A DNA stretch of 64,000 bases from Lachnospiraceae bacterium (lineage in GTDB: Bacteria > Bacillota > Clostridia > Lachnospirales > Lachnospiraceae). The position numbers and the translations under genes were made by a program. Positions 8,798 through 63,839 of this stretch are shown one piece after another (the stretch's first letter is position 1; each line of letters begins with the position of its first letter). The stretch lies in contig JAQXVT010000055.1 in NCBI GenBank assembly GCA_029225065.1, positions 1 to 64,000 on the forward strand, written 5' to 3'. The notes under the pieces are model-generated. The model ran no database searches, was not told the origin of the DNA, and saw only the letters and a list, made by a program, of their open reading frames with translations.

Positions 8798-9466
8798 TTA
8801 AAAGCCGCCGGTTTCAACCATAGATTTTAAAATCTGCAAAGACTTGAAGTCCCGATCGATCCCCGTTCGGTTCAGCCGATCCTGTACTCTGCGCAGTTCC
8901 CGGAAAATTTCCGGCTTCAGGGTAAACGTGTACAGCTTCTGGATCGGTGCTTCCAGCACGTAGGCGATCGCATATCTCGTCGATTCCTGCAGTGACACAT
9001 CCTCCGTCACACTGTAGGGATACTCGCCGTTTAAGGCCATCGCCTTCATCTCAAATATGCAACGCACCAGCTCATTGTCCAGCTTCTCGTTCGAAAGAGC
9101 CAGAAGCGAAGCGTACAAAAGATTAAGAAGCTGCGAGCCGTCAAGATTTTCCCTTGTATAATAGGAAGCAACCTCCATGAAATAACAGCCGTAGCACGTT
9201 CCCACCACGTCCGCTTTCAACTCCATAAAATAATTGGAAACCTCCGCCTGCGCCAGCGTATATGCATCTCTTCCCTCATATACCGTAAAAACACCGAATA
9301 CAAACGGATTCGCCGCTGCCAGCAGCGGACTTTTCTGGCGGCGTGCCCCGCGCGCAAAGGCGGTTATTTTTCCTCTCTCTTTCGTCAGGAGTACCATACG
9401 TTTGTCATACTCTCCGCAAGAAGATGCCTGCAGCACCATTCCTCTTACTTTTTGCGGCTCGCTCAT
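8798..9466 (-). CDS. recO: DNA repair protein RecO
   Basis: RecO loads RecA onto SSB-coated DNA together with RecR in the RecFOR recombination pathway. The 222-residue protein has the N-terminal OB fold (VRGMVLQASSCGEYDKRMVLLTKERGKITAFARGAR begins near residue 7, here quoted only as landmarks VRGMVLQ and ARGARR) and the helical RecO_C part from about residue 80. It is somewhat shorter than the usual 240-260 residues, and I do not see a CxxC zinc pair. It starts 18 bp after era, the standard era-recO order of Firmicutes. Confidence 0.93.
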   Translation of the reverse strand: MSEPQKVRGMVLQASSCGEYDKRMVLLTKERGKITAFARGARRQKSPLLAAANPFVFGVFTVYEGRDAYTLAQAEVSNYFMELKADVVGTCYGCYFMEVASYYTRENLDGSQLLNLLYASLLALSNEKLDNELVRCIFEMKAMALNGEYPYSVTEDVSLQESTRYAIAYVLEAPIQKLYTFTLKPEIFRELRRVQDRLNRTGIDRDFKSLQILKSMVETGGF

Positions 9467-9484
9467 TTTTATTCCCTTTTCCAG

Positions 9485-10393
9485 TTAAATTTCTTTTTTA
9501 TCATAGCCGAAATTTTTGATCATAAAATCACTGTCTCGCCAGTCTTTTTTCACCTTGACCCAGAGCTGAAGATTGACCTTCATCTCCATCATTTTTTCGA
9601 TCTCCATGCGGGCCTGCGAGCCGATCCGGCGCAGCATTGCGCCTCCTTTTCCGATGATAATTCCCTTATGAGAATCCTTCTCACAGATGATTGTCGCATC
9701 GATGTCAATCATTGTTCCGTCCGGCCGTTCTTTCATCCGGTCAATCGCAACCGCGATTCCATGCGGGATCTCCTCATCCAGACAGCGGAGCGCTTTCTCA
9801 CGGATCATCTCCGCCACGATCTGGCGCTGCGGCTGATCGGTGATCGTCTCATCATCATAAAACTTCGGCCCGTACGGCAGGAAGCGGAAAATCGCACTGA
9901 TCACCTTTTCCATGTTGACACCACGCAGAGCGCAGACCGGGATGATCTCCTCAAAATCATAAATTTTACGATAATTTTCCATATATTCCGGCAGTTTTTC
10001 CTTTGCTACCATATCGATCTTATTCATAATCAGAATAACCGGAACATTTGCCTTTTTCAGCTGCTCCGCGATGTGAAGCTCTCCCTTTCCGATAAAAGAA
10101 GTCGGCTCTACCAGCCAGAGAACCACATCAACTTCTTTCAGCGTCTGCTCCGCCACGTTGACCATATATTCACCAAGCTTATTCTTTGCCTTGTGAATGC
10201 CCGGCGTATCCAGAAATACGATCTGCCCCTTTTTTGAGGTATAGACCGTCTGAATCCGGTTTCGCGTCGTCTGCGGCTTATTTGAAGTGATAGCGATCTT
10301 CTGCCCGATCAGATGATTCATCAATGTTGATTTTCCGACGTTCGGACGACCGATCAGTGTCGCGAATCCGGATTTAAATTTTGCATCTTCCAT
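9485..10393 (-). CDS. era: GTPase Era
   Basis: Era is an essential GTPase that binds the 3' end of 16S rRNA and helps mature the 30S subunit. The 302-residue protein shows G1 GRPNVGKST, G3 DTPGIH, G4 NKID, and the C-terminal KH domain with GKGGAMLRRIG. The start at 10393 (MEDAKFKSGFA) is chosen over an upstream in-frame ATG because GGGAG lies 7-8 nt before it and homologues begin at this point. It lies between the M16 protease and recO on the same strand. Confidence 0.97.
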   Translation of the reverse strand: MEDAKFKSGFATLIGRPNVGKSTLMNHLIGQKIAITSNKPQTTRNRIQTVYTSKKGQIVFLDTPGIHKAKNKLGEYMVNVAEQTLKEVDVVLWLVEPTSFIGKGELHIAEQLKKANVPVILIMNKIDMVAKEKLPEYMENYRKIYDFEEIIPVCALRGVNMEKVISAIFRFLPYGPKFYDDETITDQPQRQIVAEMIREKALRCLDEEIPHGIAVAIDRMKERPDGTMIDIDATIICEKDSHKGIIIGKGGAMLRRIGSQARMEIEKMMEMKVNLQLWVKVKKDWRDSDFMIKNFGYDKKEI

Positions 10394-58573: not shown

Positions 58574-58634
58574 AAGCGGATATTTGCAATCCGCTTCGCT
58601 ACCTGCTCATAACAGAGCAGCTGCTCGGTTAAAA
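58574..58634 (+). repeat. Dispersed intergenic repeat, copy B
   Basis: AGCGGATATTTGCAATCCGCT forms a hairpin by itself; it is followed by TCGCTACCTGCTC and, after GAGCAGCTGCTC, by CGGTTAAAAT. It is the closest relative of copy A and lies between trxA and the MerR gene. Confidence 0.7.
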
Positions 58635-58693
58635 TATTACAAACCAGACCTGCAATTGCCCGATTCAGGCAGTCTTTTGCAGAAAGGAGTACC

Positions 58694-59875
58694 ATGAAAT
58701 TACCTGGATACTATTCCTCCGGACAATTTGCAAAAATGGCAAATGTTTCTGTCCGCACAATCCGGTTTTATGACAAACAAAATATTCTGAAACCATCCTA
58801 TGTCACGCCAGCCGGCGCACGGTTTTATACTGACTCTGATTTTGCCAGACTGCAGCAAATTCTTCTTCTTAAATATCTCGGCTTTTCGCTCGATGATATC
58901 CGTGAAATGACGATCAATGACCTCGACTGCCATTTCATGCTCAGCTCTCTGAAAATGCAGAAAAAGCTTGTTCAGGACCGCATGGAGCAGCTACAGCTTG
59001 TTGAACATGCCATTGACAACACCATTTCCGCCATCGGTGAGCAGAAACAGATTGACTGGAGTCAGATGCTCGATCTGATTCATCTCACTAGTATGGAAAA
59101 AAGTCTCAAGACACAGTACCAGGATGCCACAAATATTTCCGCGCGCATCCGGCTGCACCGCGATTATTCCACCAATAAAGAAGGGTGGTTTCCATGGCTG
59201 TACCGCCAAAGCCAGATCCGTTCCGGCATGGAAATCCTTGAAGTCGGCTGCGGCACAGGTTCCTTATGGCAGGAAAATAAGGAGCGTCTTCCTGATAAAG
59301 TACACATCACTCTCTCTGATATTTCCGATGGAATGCTGCGCGATGCCAGAAGAACAATCGGTCTTGAAGATTCCCGTTTTTCCTTCCAGCCATTCGACTG
59401 TCATCATATTCCGTTTTCGGATATGTCATTCGATCTTATCTTTGCCAATCATGTACTTTTTTATTGTGAAGATCTCTCTTCCGTATTTCAGGAAGTGTGC
59501 CGTGTACTGCGCCCTTCCGGAGTTTTTATCTGCAGCACATACAGCAGACATCATATGCAGGAAATCAGCAGTCTTGTCCGGGAGTTCGACAACCGAATCG
59601 TTCTCTCAGCAGACAAGCTTTATGATCATTTCGGCCTGGAAAACGGTGCTGCGCTGCTGCAGCCTTATTTTTCTTCTGTTTCTGAACATATGTATGAAGA
59701 CTCGATCGAGCTTGGTCAGCCGGAGCCTCTGATCGAATATATTCTTTCCTGCCATGGGAACCAAAACCAGATCCTGCTTGACCGATACCACGAATTTCGG
59801 ACTTTTGTCGAAAAAAAGGTGCAAAATGGCTTTCATATTACAAAAGAATGCGGAATCTTTTTATGCCGTAAATGA
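58694..59875 (+). CDS. MerR-type regulator fused to a SAM-dependent methyltransferase
   Basis: This 393-residue protein has an N-terminal MerR winged helix (YSSGQFAKMANVSVRTIRFYDKQNIL, residues 8-33; then DFARLQQILLLKYLGFSLDDIREM), a coiled-coil dimer helix (about 85-130), and in place of the usual ligand pocket a class I methyltransferase (EILEVGCGTGSLW near residue 182, FDLIFANHVLFYCED). It may sense or modify a small molecule. The start has AGAAAGGAG 6 nt upstream. The rfb genes follow 300 bp downstream with a MerR-type promoter. The target of methylation is unknown. Confidence 0.85.
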   Translation: MKLPGYYSSGQFAKMANVSVRTIRFYDKQNILKPSYVTPAGARFYTDSDFARLQQILLLKYLGFSLDDIREMTINDLDCHFMLSSLKMQKKLVQDRMEQLQLVEHAIDNTISAIGEQKQIDWSQMLDLIHLTSMEKSLKTQYQDATNISARIRLHRDYSTNKEGWFPWLYRQSQIRSGMEILEVGCGTGSLWQENKERLPDKVHITLSDISDGMLRDARRTIGLEDSRFSFQPFDCHHIPFSDMSFDLIFANHVLFYCEDLSSVFQEVCRVLRPSGVFICSTYSRHHMQEISSLVREFDNRIVLSADKLYDHFGLENGAALLQPYFSSVSEHMYEDSIELGQPEPLIEYILSCHGNQNQILLDRYHEFRTFVEKKVQNGFHITKECGIFLCRK

Positions 59876-60013
59876 TGTTTGACAGCAGGTTTTCCGGCAA
59901 ATATCGTGTGCACAACGTAAAATACGAATAATCGCTTTACTTACAACATAATTTCTATAAAAAATTATTAATCCTTTTATAAAGACATTAAAAAAAAAAA
60001 AAGCAAAAAAAGC

Positions 60014-60044
60014 TTGCAGGTGACGTTACGTCATCTTTTATAAT
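60014..60044 (+). promoter_or_regulatory. MerR-type promoter with 19-bp spacer before rfbA
   Basis: TTGCAG (60014-60019) and TATAAT (60039-60044) are separated by 19 bp, and the spacer carries the perfect 13-bp palindrome TGACGT-T-ACGTCA (60021-60033). A long spacer with a dyad is the hallmark of MerR-activated promoters. A further inverted repeat TCATCTT/AAGATGA (60031-60037, 60048-60054) overlaps the -10 box. The start would be about 125 nt before rfbA. Confidence 0.55.
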
Positions 60045-60176
60045 AACAAGATGAACAAGAGTTGTATTATCGTTTTACTTACATAGTGTTTCTTACTTTT
60101 ACGTCATTCATAAATTAAATATTTACCTGTTCTGCAGCGTACAATTCAGGTATATGATACAAAGGAGGGCTATCAT

Positions 60177-61076
60177 ATGAAAGGAATCATTCTCGCCGGC
60201 GGATCTGGCACACGTTTGTATCCGCTCACTATGGTAACATCAAAACAGCTTCTTCCGATTTATGACAAACCGATGATTTATTATCCAATGTCGGTTCTGA
60301 TGAATGCCGGAATTCGTGACATCCTGATTATCTCAACTCCTCAGGACACGCCGCGTTTCCACGAACTGCTTGGTGACGGGCATCAGTTTGGTGTTCATCT
60401 GACCTACGCCGTACAGCCAAGCCCGGACGGACTGGCACAGGCTTTCATTATCGGAGAAGAATTTATCGGAAACGACACGGTAGCTATGGTACTCGGTGAC
60501 AACATCTTCACCGGTCAGGGATTAACCCAGCGCTTAAAAGATGCCGTTTCAAATGCAGAAACCGGAAAGGGTGCTACGGTATTCGGTTATTACGTCGATG
60601 ACCCGGAACGTTTCGGTATTGTTGAATTCAACACAGAAGGCAAGGCTGTTTCCATCGAGGAAAAACCGCTGCATCCAAAGAGTAATTACTGTGTTACCGG
60701 ATTATACTTCTATGACAATAAAGTTGTAGAATACGCAAAAAATCTGAAACCGAGTGCCCGCGGAGAGCTTGAAATTACAGACTTAAACCGCATCTATCTG
60801 GAAAGCGGCAATTTAAATGTGGAACTGCTTGGTCAGGGCTTTACCTGGCTGGATACAGGTACTCATGAAAGCCTCGTTGAAGCAACAAATTTCGTCAAGA
60901 CGATTGAATCGCATCAGCATCGGAAGATCGCCTGCCTGGAAGAGATTGCTTATCTGAACGGCTGGATTACCGAAGAAGAAGTATTGGAGGTTTACGAAGT
61001 ACTGAAGAAAAATCAGTATGGACAGTATTTGAAAGATGTACTTGACCACAAATATATCGATATTCTGCATCGGTAA
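60177..61076 (+). CDS. rfbA: Glucose-1-phosphate thymidylyltransferase
   Basis: RfbA (RmlA) makes dTDP-glucose from glucose 1-phosphate and dTTP, first step of dTDP-L-rhamnose synthesis for cell-surface polysaccharide. The 299-residue protein begins [37 protein letters not shown] (nucleotide-binding [11 protein letters not shown]), and has the conserved [12 protein letters not shown] and [20 protein letters not shown]. The start has AAAGGAGG 6 nt upstream. First gene of rfbABDC. Confidence 0.97.
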
Positions 61077-61166: not shown

Positions 61167-62186
61167 ATGAATATTATCGTTACCGGCGGTGCCGGATTTA
61201 TCGGAAGCAACTTTATTTTTCACATGCTGGAGGCTCATCCGGATTACAGGATCGTATGCCTGGACTGTCTGACCTATGCAGGAAATCTTTCCACACTTGC
61301 TCCGGTCATGGATCAGCCAAATTTCCGTTTTGTAAAAGACAGCATCACAGATCGTGAAGCAGTTTACCGTCTGTTTGAGGAGGAGCACCCAGATATCGTG
61401 GTCAACTTCGCTGCCGAATCTCATGTGGACCGTTCCATCGAAAACCCTGAGATCTTTCTTGACACCAACATCAAGGGAACTGCTGTTTTAATGGATGCCT
61501 GCCGTAAGTATGGCATCACCCGCTATCATCAGGTATCTACTGATGAAGTTTACGGTGATCTTCCGCTCGACCGCCCGGATCTCTTCTTCACGGAAGAAAC
61601 CCCGATCCACACAAGTTCTCCATACAGTTCTTCCAAAGCAGGTGCAGACCTTCTCGTTCTTGCTTATCACCGCACGTATGGTCTTCCTGTTACGATCAGC
61701 CGCTGCTCCAACAATTACGGCCCTTACCATTTCCCGGAGAAACTCATTCCACTCATGATCGCCAATGCATTAAACGATAAGCCGCTTCCGGTCTACGGAA
61801 AAGGTGAAAATGTACGCGACTGGCTGTATGTTGAGGATCACTGCCGTGCAATCGATCTGATTATCCACAAAGGACGTGTCGGTGAGGTCTACAACGTCGG
61901 CGGCCACAATGAGATGCGCAACATCGACATCGTAAAACTGATCTGCCGCGAACTCGGCAAACCGGAAAGTCTGATTACTTACGTTGCTGACCGCAAGGGT
62001 CACGATATGCGCTATGCAATCGATCCAACCAAGATTCACAACGAACTCGGATGGCTTCCGGAAACAAAATTCGCGGATGGCATCAAGAAAACCATCGAGT
62101 GGTATTTAAACAATCGTGAATGGTGGGAAACCATTATTTCCGGTGAATATCAGAATTACTACGAAAAAATGTACGGAAATCGTTAA
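61167..62186 (+). CDS. rfbB: dTDP-glucose 4,6-dehydratase
   Basis: RfbB (RmlB) converts dTDP-glucose to dTDP-4-keto-6-deoxyglucose. The 339-residue extended SDR protein shows the NAD-binding GGAGFIGSNF, the Thr-Asp-Glu active-site segment VSTDEVYGDL, and YSSSKAGADLL (Tyr and Lys of the YxxxK motif). The start has AAAGGAG 7-8 nt upstream, 90 bp after rfbA. Confidence 0.97.
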   Translation: MNIIVTGGAGFIGSNFIFHMLEAHPDYRIVCLDCLTYAGNLSTLAPVMDQPNFRFVKDSITDREAVYRLFEEEHPDIVVNFAAESHVDRSIENPEIFLDTNIKGTAVLMDACRKYGITRYHQVSTDEVYGDLPLDRPDLFFTEETPIHTSSPYSSSKAGADLLVLAYHRTYGLPVTISRCSNNYGPYHFPEKLIPLMIANALNDKPLPVYGKGENVRDWLYVEDHCRAIDLIIHKGRVGEVYNVGGHNEMRNIDIVKLICRELGKPESLITYVADRKGHDMRYAIDPTKIHNELGWLPETKFADGIKKTIEWYLNNREWWETIISGEYQNYYEKMYGNR

Positions 62187-62218: not shown

Positions 62219-63151
62219 ATGAAGGCACTTGTTACCGGAGTCGGCGGCCAGCTTGGTCATGATGTAATCAATGAATTAGTAAAACGTGGACATGAATGCA
62301 TTGGTTCCGGTCTTACTTCAGAATATAACGGCAATCAGGATGGTACTGCTGTAACCAGAGTATCTTATGTGTCAATGGACATCACCGATGAGGCAGCCGT
62401 AAAGCATGTAATTACAGAATTTTCTCCAGACGTCGTAATACACTGTGCAGCCTGGACCGCTGTTGATCTCGCAGAAGAAAAAGATAACATTGCAAAAGTT
62501 CACGCAGTCAATGTCTGCGGCACAGAAAATATTGCCCGCGCCTGCAGGGAAATTGATTGTAAAATGATTTACCTCTCTACAGATTACGTATTCAATGGCC
62601 AGGGGAATCTCCCCTGGCAGCCTGATTGTAAGAATTATCATCCGCTCAACGTATATGGGCAAACAAAGCTGGAAGGCGAACTGGCGGTTTCTTCTTTGCT
62701 TGAAAAATACTTTATTGTCCGTATTGCGTGGGTATTCGGTACAAACGGAAGCAACTTTGTCAAAACCATGTTAAATATCGCAAAAACACACAATACGCTT
62801 CGTGTTGTCAATGATCAAATCGGTACGCCGACTTATACTTTCGATCTTGCCTCTCTGCTCTGCGACATGGCCGAAAGCGATAAATACGGATATTACCACG
62901 CAACAAATGAAGGCGGTTATATCAGCTGGTATGATTTTACAAAAGAAATTTTCCGTCAGGCCGCAGAGCTCGGTCATACTGAATATTCAGAAATCACTGT
63001 GCTTCCTGTCACAACCGCTGAGTATGGGCTTTCAAAAGCCGCCCGGCCATTCAACAGCCGCCTTGATAAAAGCAAACTTATCACAAATGGTTTTACGCCG
63101 CTCCCTGATTGGCGTGACGCTCTTCACCGCTATCTTCAGCAGTGTCTATAG
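62219..63151 (+). CDS. rfbD: dTDP-4-dehydrorhamnose reductase
   Basis: RfbD (RmlD) reduces dTDP-4-keto-L-rhamnose to dTDP-L-rhamnose. The 310-residue SDR protein has the motif GVGGQLGHDVINEL near residue 7, the STDYVFNGQG segment, and the YGQTKLEGE active-site Tyr and Lys. The start has GGGAGG 6 nt upstream. It lies 32 bp after rfbB and before rfbC. Confidence 0.96.
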   Translation: MKALVTGVGGQLGHDVINELVKRGHECIGSGLTSEYNGNQDGTAVTRVSYVSMDITDEAAVKHVITEFSPDVVIHCAAWTAVDLAEEKDNIAKVHAVNVCGTENIARACREIDCKMIYLSTDYVFNGQGNLPWQPDCKNYHPLNVYGQTKLEGELAVSSLLEKYFIVRIAWVFGTNGSNFVKTMLNIAKTHNTLRVVNDQIGTPTYTFDLASLLCDMAESDKYGYYHATNEGGYISWYDFTKEIFRQAAELGHTEYSEITVLPVTTAEYGLSKAARPFNSRLDKSKLITNGFTPLPDWRDALHRYLQQCL

Positions 63152-63230
63152 TGTAAAATGATAGTTTATAATATTCCAGATCCATTCAAGCGAATGCCTC
63201 GTGGAAATGAATAGTTTCAGGAGATTAAAA

Positions 63231-63839
63231 ATGGGACAGATTAAAGTTGAAAAAAACGCAGGTGGTATTGAAGGGCTTTGCATCATTACCCCTGCAGTTC
63301 ATGGAGATGCTCGTGGATATTTCGCAGAAACTTATAATCAAAATGACATGAACGAAGCTGGATTAACCATGAAATTTGTTCAGGACAATCAATCCGGCTC
63401 TGTAAAAGGTGTTCTGCGAGGTCTTCATTATCAAAAAGAGCATCCTCAGGGCAAGCTGGTACGCGTCATTCGCGGCTCTGTTTTTGATGTAGCCGTCGAT
63501 TTACGTAAAGACAGCGCCACCTATGGTAAATGGTTTGGTATTGAGCTTACAGAAGAAAATCATAAGCAATTTTATATTCCTCAGGGATTTGCTCACGGCT
63601 TTCTGGTGCTCAGTGACATCGCGGAATTCTGCTATAAATGTACCGACTTCTACCGTCCCGGTGATGAAGGCGGCATGGCATGGAATGATCCGGATCTTGG
63701 TATTGTCTGGCCGCAGCTGGTTGGTTCTTACAACGGTACGCCGTCCGCTGCGGGATATACACTTGAGGATGGCACACCGCTTAATTTAAGCGATAAAGAC
63801 CAGAAATGGCTTGGATTTAAGGACACCTTTACTTTTTAA
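63231..63839 (+). CDS. rfbC: dTDP-4-dehydrorhamnose 3,5-epimerase
   Basis: RfbC (RmlC) epimerises dTDP-4-keto-6-deoxyglucose to the L-rhamno form; it acts before RfbD despite being the last gene. The 202-residue cupin has the conserved DARGYFAETYNQ near the start, the catalytic His in VLRGLHYQ, and QFYIPQGFAHGFLVLS. The start at 63231 (MGQIKVEKNAGG) has AGGAG 7 nt upstream; a longer frame from 63201 lacks such a site. Confidence 0.95.
   Translation: MGQIKVEKNAGGIEGLCIITPAVHGDARGYFAETYNQNDMNEAGLTMKFVQDNQSGSVKGVLRGLHYQKEHPQGKLVRVIRGSVFDVAVDLRKDSATYGKWFGIELTEENHKQFYIPQGFAHGFLVLSDIAEFCYKCTDFYRPGDEGGMAWNDPDLGIVWPQLVGSYNGTPSAAGYTLEDGTPLNLSDKDQKWLGFKDTFTF

Follow-up and report, generated by a model that had tools for sequence, protein, structure and literature searches.

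A MerR-methyltransferase fusion protein as a candidate regulator of dTDP-rhamnose genes in Lachnospiraceae and relatives

The window, the whole 64,000-nucleotide stretch of Lachnospiraceae DNA analyzed here, contains a gene encoding a MerR-methyltransferase fusion protein, followed on the same strand by the dTDP-rhamnose genes rfbA, rfbB, rfbD, and rfbC (Table 1). The identities of RmlA, RmlB, RmlD, and RmlC were assigned by NCBIfam equivalog cut-offs, all four of which were exceeded. The ORF of rfbC opens at a GTG (63201), and its probable start is the ATG at 63228. Past the end of the window, the same genome carries opposite-strand ORFs after rfbC (locus L074, 7038-10266), including what we take by eye to be a LytR-CpsA-Psr-like protein (8824-9900, opposite strand) and, at the contig end, what is presumably a fragment of a CpsD-like kinase. 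Going by these names, given by eye, the genes after rfbC are a surface-polysaccharide setting. Upstream of the fusion gene, the hairpin GCGGAT-N7-ATCCGC (58576-58594) is a dispersed palindromic repeat with 57 copies in the genome and none for the reversed control; its commonest form among the copies listed is GCGGATATTCGCAATCCGC.

Table 1. Features of the fusion gene, the rfbA promoter, and the rfb operon (positions in the window)
Feature	Position	Strand	Evidence or remark
Ribosome-binding site AAAGGAG of the fusion gene	58683..58689	+	Read by eye
MerR-methyltransferase fusion gene, 393 aa	58694..59875	+	ORF; Pfam; AlphaFold2 model; structural matches
-35 element TTGCAG of the rfbA promoter	60014..60019	+	Sequence; TTG conserved in orthologous loci
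Candidate operator, perfect dyad TGACGTTACGTCA (TGACGT-T-ACGTCA)	60021..60033	+	Within the 19-bp spacer 60020-60038
-10 element TATAAT of the rfbA promoter	60039..60044	+	Sequence; conserved in orthologous loci
Ribosome-binding site AAAGGAGG of rfbA	60161..60168	+	By eye; ~130 nt downstream of the promoter
rfbA/rmlA, glucose-1-phosphate thymidylyltransferase (proposed target)	60177..61076	+	TIGR01207, 486 bits (cut-off 361)
rfbB/rmlB, dTDP-glucose 4,6-dehydratase (proposed target)	61167..62186	+	TIGR01181, 492 bits (cut-off 365)
rfbD/rmlD, dTDP-4-dehydrorhamnose reductase (proposed target)	62219..63151	+	TIGR01214, 286 bits (cut-off 224)
rfbC/rmlC, dTDP-4-dehydrorhamnose 3,5-epimerase (proposed target)	63228..63839	+	TIGR01221, 235 bits (cut-off 156)

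An earlier note, made from the sequence alone, had described the gene upstream of rfbA as a MerR DNA-binding domain joined to a SAM methyltransferase, and Pfam placed both domains within the single 393-aa ORF: MerR_1 at residues 7 to 72 (E = 2.8e-17) and Methyltransf_11 at residues 182 to 280 (E = 2e-21). The N-terminal part matches MerR winged-helix models (PF13411, 63 bits against a cut-off of 21.6; PF00376, 40.9 against 28.2), with PF09278 at residues 51 to 108 barely above its cut-off (26.7 versus 25.4). This domain is followed by a predicted long helix (residues 79 to 117) and by the methyltransferase at about residues 136 to 393. The AlphaFold2 model has a mean pLDDT of 81.4 and low confidence in the helix and linker, with block values of just 57 to 63 for the helix. 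The C-terminal half has the Rossmann-like fold, the glycine-rich SAM motif, and the acidic residue after strand 2 of a class I SAM methyltransferase, and the motif (E-x-G-x-G-x-G) and acidic residue (D209) are invariant across 37 orthologues, as are many further residues. In the Pfam search (E up to 0.001), this half matched methyltransferase models, along with DUF6387 below its cut-off, and no GyrI-like or TipAS effector model. Assignments as BioC (95.9 bits; NCBIfam equivalog cut-off, 185) and MenG/UbiE (61.8 bits; cut-off, 158) were rejected.

The rfbA promoter is of the sigma-A type and carries the candidate operator dyad in its spacer. Its length of 19 bp falls within the 19 to 20 bp described as typical of MerR promoters in PMC8113463. 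The dyad is centered on the eighth spacer base, with 7 bases between the center and the -35 element, in keeping with the 7 to 8 bp given for MerR promoters in PMC5045206. The coordinates on which the earlier note had based its reading of a MerR-activated architecture, a 19-bp spacer with a perfect dyad, are confirmed, and the geometry fits both sources. The scan of locus L074 found no such promoter or dyad upstream of the fusion gene's own start; autoregulation was therefore not seen there. Two further repeats were noted around the promoter. One half of the operator, TTACGTCAT, occurs again in the rfbA leader at 60099-60107, 73 bp downstream, and an 18-nt direct repeat (59928-59945 and 60066-60083; 89% identical, 138 bp apart) flanks the promoter. 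The latter has only two weaker matches elsewhere in the genome with two mismatches allowed and is possibly a site for a second regulator.

One copy of the dyad is by itself modest evidence. The exact dyad is present once in the 3.18-Mb genome, sites with one mismatch number three, and those with two mismatches are many (1.84 expected per window). Because a single 13-mer dyad could arise by chance, the weight comes from conservation, which we assessed in loci from two scans. Named genomes yielded 39 loci. Of 397 genomes of the family, 66 had a match (E up to 1e-60), including a few paralogues of 34 to 35% identity; 29 from among the best-scoring of these 66 were used. Four genomes of the genus (the window's own included) and one distant paralogue were added with longer loci. 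A 30% partial match from Myxococcota (L069) was left out of all counts. Among the 72 loci examined (L031-L068, L071-L075, and L096-L124), an rfb gene follows the fusion gene on the examined piece in 59, or 55 after removal of four exact duplicates. Alignment A1 was built without L067, which is cut by a contig end, and L048, which has an in-frame stop.

Orthologues without the dyad, which the earlier note had named as evidence against its reading, did not appear among these best-scoring orthologues: the promoter and dyad precede the first rfb gene in all 55 nonredundant loci, which span Lachnospiraceae, Lactobacillus, and Erysipelotrichaceae types. The first rfb gene is rfbA or rfbB, several gene orders occur, and rfbA is ~90% or ~66% identical to that of the window. 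The site was scored in the rfb-upstream regions of 54 of the 55; in L031 it overlaps the regulator stop codon and was found by whole-locus scan, the scanned upstream region having started past that codon, which leaves 1 misplaced row of 55 in the column conservation. The weakest site scored 13.8 (L066) and the remaining loci at least 35, against a background of at most 0.7 in 72 coding sequences. Since 28 of these sites had gone into training the scoring matrix, which fixes the spacing, we also ran a matrix-free pattern (dyad core, TTG, and TANNNT with a spacer of 19 in fixed register), which matched 51/55 nonredundant orthologous regions versus 0/11,000 Markov-shuffled regions. Judged by their cores, the misses were L031 and three variants; in the core of L121, CCCTTAGGG, both arms are altered symmetrically. 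The next commonest spacings in the 55 regions, 21 and 24 (15 each), reflect other TA-T words downstream.

A TTG stands at the -35 place in 54 of the 55 loci, and L031 has one at its own site in the whole-locus scan. Mean information per column is 1.39 bits within the site, 0.64 in the A-rich 20 bases upstream, and 0.26 downstream. Recognition-helix type tracks the core variant (16/19 CT-containing cores versus 4/36 others), a match that is not independent evidence because it involves only three changes on the tree. In Lactobacillus delbrueckii DSM 20074 (L048, 8001-9176), the fusion gene has an in-frame stop and the rfbB promoter site is kept.

The site also co-occurs with the regulator. In the genus, the fusion gene is present in 4 of 47 genomes and the strict site pattern in 5: the four regulator carriers, with one site per genome, and G044, whose site stands in front of a different MerR gene. 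The reversed-pattern control matched none of the 47. Homologues of rfbA were found in 41 of the 47 genomes, and 30 of the 49 matches were examined as loci, 4 with the regulator and 26 without it. All four loci of regulator carriers have the site (scores of 46.9 to 50.3), and it is absent from all 26 others examined (best score, -1.9), four of which offered less than 1400 nt upstream (L178, L186, L193, and L199); in 19 of these 26 site-less loci, RfbA is 86 to 89% identical to that of the window. Across the family, 50/397 genomes have the strict pattern. Fourteen of the 30 strict family sites with loci adjoin rfb or the fusion gene, with a fusion-gene match in all 14 genomes, and the other 16 are at other places, with another MerR homologue nearby in 13 cases. 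Judged from these counts, the ACGTnACGT site type is common to several MerR groups, and the rfb one goes with the fusion.

Where regulator and target are apart, the site stays with rfb. In four loci it lies 21 to 200 nt before rfb despite gaps of 0.6 to 2.7 kb between regulator and rfb (L121, 608 nt; L118, 796 nt; L068, 1897 nt; and L066, 2741 nt, the last three with ORFs between). We ran a looser pattern over the full sequence of fifteen genomes, 12 of which lack rfb after the regulator on the examined piece. In nine of these 12, the site directly precedes an rfbA or rfbB located elsewhere: G210, G357, G378, G458 (Blautia hansenii), G459 (Coprococcus comes), G460, G462 (Kandleria vitulina), G463, and G466, with site-to-regulator distances of ~1.5 kb in G357, ~2 kb in G378, and ~11 kb in G210. 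In G464 and G465, the site follows the regulator and the contig then ends, and G461 gave no match by the looser pattern, its locus L056 having a degenerate site (19-bp spacer; score, 12.3) in front of rfbA. Among the other three genomes of the fifteen, G037 has the site before its paralogue's own gene, and G176 is linked.

Other arrangements were also found. The order in G406 is site, rfbB-type gene, and fusion gene (L207), and the site precedes rfb in the more distant loci L212, L213, and L214. In L208 (G170) and L211 (G255) it precedes the fusion gene and heads a fusion-rfb operon. A second copy in G189 (L203, 41% identical) follows a weak site (17.4) and an rfbB-type gene, and three fusions of 33 to 34% identity (L204, L205, and L206) have neither a scored site nor an rfb neighbor.

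To look for a wider family, we searched 391 genomes of the taxonomic class, using a stand-alone relative of the methyltransferase half as the query, and obtained matches in 29. Outside the rfb group, the relatives examined comprise 16 fusions and 15 stand-alone proteins. Downstream of nine of the 16 fusions lies a DegT-type aminotransferase gene, judged by its first residues; the four of these nine aminotransferases that were scanned all match PseC/ArnB/WecE-type sugar aminotransferases, below equivalog cut-offs. In 7 of the 16, a scored 19-bp MerR-type site lies upstream of the fusion's own gene or at its start. The fusion in L234 (1035-3731) has a 19-bp-type site upstream and precedes an arginine deiminase gene, so sugar genes do not adjoin every member, and no sugar-gene neighbor was identified in L204, L205, L206, L218, L227, or L244. 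One stand-alone relative (L210, 5730-6530; 36 to 37% identical) lies between galK and galE/galT.

Two motifs mark the rfb-linked proteins, counted in sets that have some genomes in common. SCHGNQ is present in 59/59 proteins with rfb on the same piece, 11/13 with rfb off the piece, and 11/11 rfb-linked proteins of the wider set, missing in the cut-off L067 and the 37% paralogue L075; none of the 16 other fusions or 15 stand-alone relatives has it. NHxLFY is found in 47/59, 11/13, and 11/11 of the same rfb sets versus 1/16 other fusions and 0/15 stand-alone relatives. The PseC-like clade has mostly SMPGN and N[HN]xLYH. Motif and descent are inseparable, because the rfb-linked copies group in a single clade (21 of 53 rows; SH-aLRT, 100); the DegT-linked copies fall in two places. 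The Lactobacillus copies (L047, L048, L049, L050, and L063) are 56 to 59% identical to the window protein, and L047, the sole one on the tree, sits within Lachnospiraceae sequences at a support of about 90 (not starred), which suggests gene transfer between Lactobacillus and Lachnospiraceae.

On these comparative grounds, the pairing of regulator, operator, and rfb is very probable, and the regulator-operator pair is strongly supported by the sequence comparisons. The proposal of the earlier note that surface rhamnose synthesis is switched by this regulator gains support from the site at rfb and its co-occurrence with the fusion gene. By analogy with MerR proteins, the fusion protein most likely activates rfb by promoter distortion. 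The 19-bp spacer and the dyad centered on its eighth base point to a protein, probably a dimer, that would bind within the spacer of the rfbA promoter. On its own, such an over-long promoter would be weak or kept off, as in BmrR, CueR, and EcmrR. Once the right ligand occupied the C-terminal domain, the protein would distort the spacer and make the promoter usable for RNA polymerase. Activation would turn on the rfbABDC operon and supply rhamnose for surface glycans. The methyltransferase domain would presumably be the sensor, binding SAM or SAH together with a pathway-linked metabolite, for example a dTDP-sugar intermediate, and the residues special to the clade (SCHGNQ and, largely, NHxLFY) would read that metabolite. 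A ligand from the pathway is conjectured because these residues are clade specific and many neighbors are enzymes of NDP-sugar chemistry; we offer this signal as a tentative guess. SAM or a methyl acceptor, which the earlier note had put forward as the signal, is plausible given the invariant SAM motif and other invariant residues.

The dyad might instead serve as the stem of the fusion gene's intrinsic terminator. It sits 3' of that gene, and a scan flagged a stem at 60018-60036 followed by TTTTATAATAA as terminator-like, but the site keeps to rfb rather than to the fusion gene across intervening genes and long gaps (L066, L068, L118, and L121), is found at rfb where the regulator is elsewhere in the genome, and lies upstream of the fusion gene itself in G170, G255, G037, and several Clostridia. 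Furthermore, TTG and TANNNT at 19-bp spacing are conserved with the dyad, and a terminator needs neither. We rejected this highly improbable reading as contradicted by the position of the site relative to rfb and the fusion gene. A different MerR protein could control the promoter, with the fusion merely traveling with the operon, because similar 19-bp sites (ACGTnACGT) serve other MerR-type genes of the family; five other places in the window genome also match parts of the fusion protein. This is very unlikely, however, as the same four of 47 congeners have both the site at rfb and the fusion gene, with the sole other site preceding another MerR gene, all 14 family genomes with an examined strict site beside rfb or the fusion gene have a fusion-gene match, and the exact dyad is unique in the window genome.

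If the fusion protein does act at this promoter, it could chiefly repress rfb until its ligand releases it, with no activation by distortion. Uninduced MerR proteins do act as repressors according to the review PMC9909328, but the 19-bp spacer is conserved (51/55 by the matrix-free pattern) where a simple repressor could use a 17-bp promoter, and conserved over-long spacers mark activation (PMC8113463). We consider simple repression unlikely. The domain could also be a trigger enzyme, that is, a working methyltransferase acting on a pathway sugar, nucleotide sugar, or carrier, with regulation through its turnover state. The invariance of the SAM motif, D209, and many more residues in the 37 orthologues would fit this, as would the small-molecule methyltransferases that are its closest folds and the existence of stand-alone relatives such as that between galK and galE/galT. 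A SAM-binding pocket can be retained for sensing alone, however, and no catalytic residue or substrate was identified for the domain. An active enzyme is a less probable option.

The regulator, candidate operator, and target hold across at least three bacterial families. If right, they offer a handle on how surface rhamnose is set in Blautia, Coprococcus, Lachnospira, and lactobacilli, and MerR proteins would gain a metabolic enzyme fold among their sensor domains. With protein, promoter, and candidate operator defined, a direct search for the ligand is possible. The fusions before sugar-aminotransferase genes in other Clostridia suggest a wider family of nucleotide-sugar regulators. It is conceivable, if speculative, that MerR-methyltransferase fusions are a broad undescribed class that monitors the nucleotide-sugar pools for surface glycans. 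In that case, the methyltransferase fold would have become a sensor for a nucleotide keto- or deoxysugar intermediate plus SAM, and a few residues (SCHGNQ and mostly NHxLFY in the rfb clade, and those given above for the PseC-like clade) would set the pathway whose intermediate is read; if true, this would link methyl-donor status to cell-surface make-up.

The domain types and the promoter mechanism are known, and the combination and regulon were not found in the open-access literature: as far as titles and abstracts go, none describes a MerR-methyltransferase regulator of rhamnose or nucleotide-sugar genes, and the open-access work on MerR regulators that was searched gave no report of any MerR-type regulator of dTDP-rhamnose genes. 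The fusions beside DegT/PseC-like genes in other Clostridia have the same architecture and are 31 to 38% identical, but they form separate clades, and the non-rfb fusions lack SCHGNQ and, in 15 of 16, NHxLFY. The class I small-molecule methyltransferases OxaG (5w7k), TmtA (5egp), GtmA (5jgk), and M. mazei 3mgg are only 13 to 20% identical; no DNA-binding half aligned in these matches, and their substrates are not transferable. The metal regulators CueR and MerR share the 19- to 20-bp spacer and the dyad center 7 to 8 bp from the -35 element, as given in PMC5045206, but have a short metal-binding C-terminal loop in place of a methyltransferase domain. By profile, the nearest solved DNA-binding domains are 3hh0, MtaN (1jbg/1r8d), TipAL (2vz4), and BmrR. 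The fusion resembles BmrR, MtaN, and TipAL in having a MerR domain followed by a long predicted helix and a 19-bp-spacer promoter with a dyad. That subgroup targets drug efflux or its own gene and has GyrI-like or TipAS drug-binding C termini, whereas the fusion ends in a class I SAM methyltransferase and its proposed target is a nucleotide-sugar operon.
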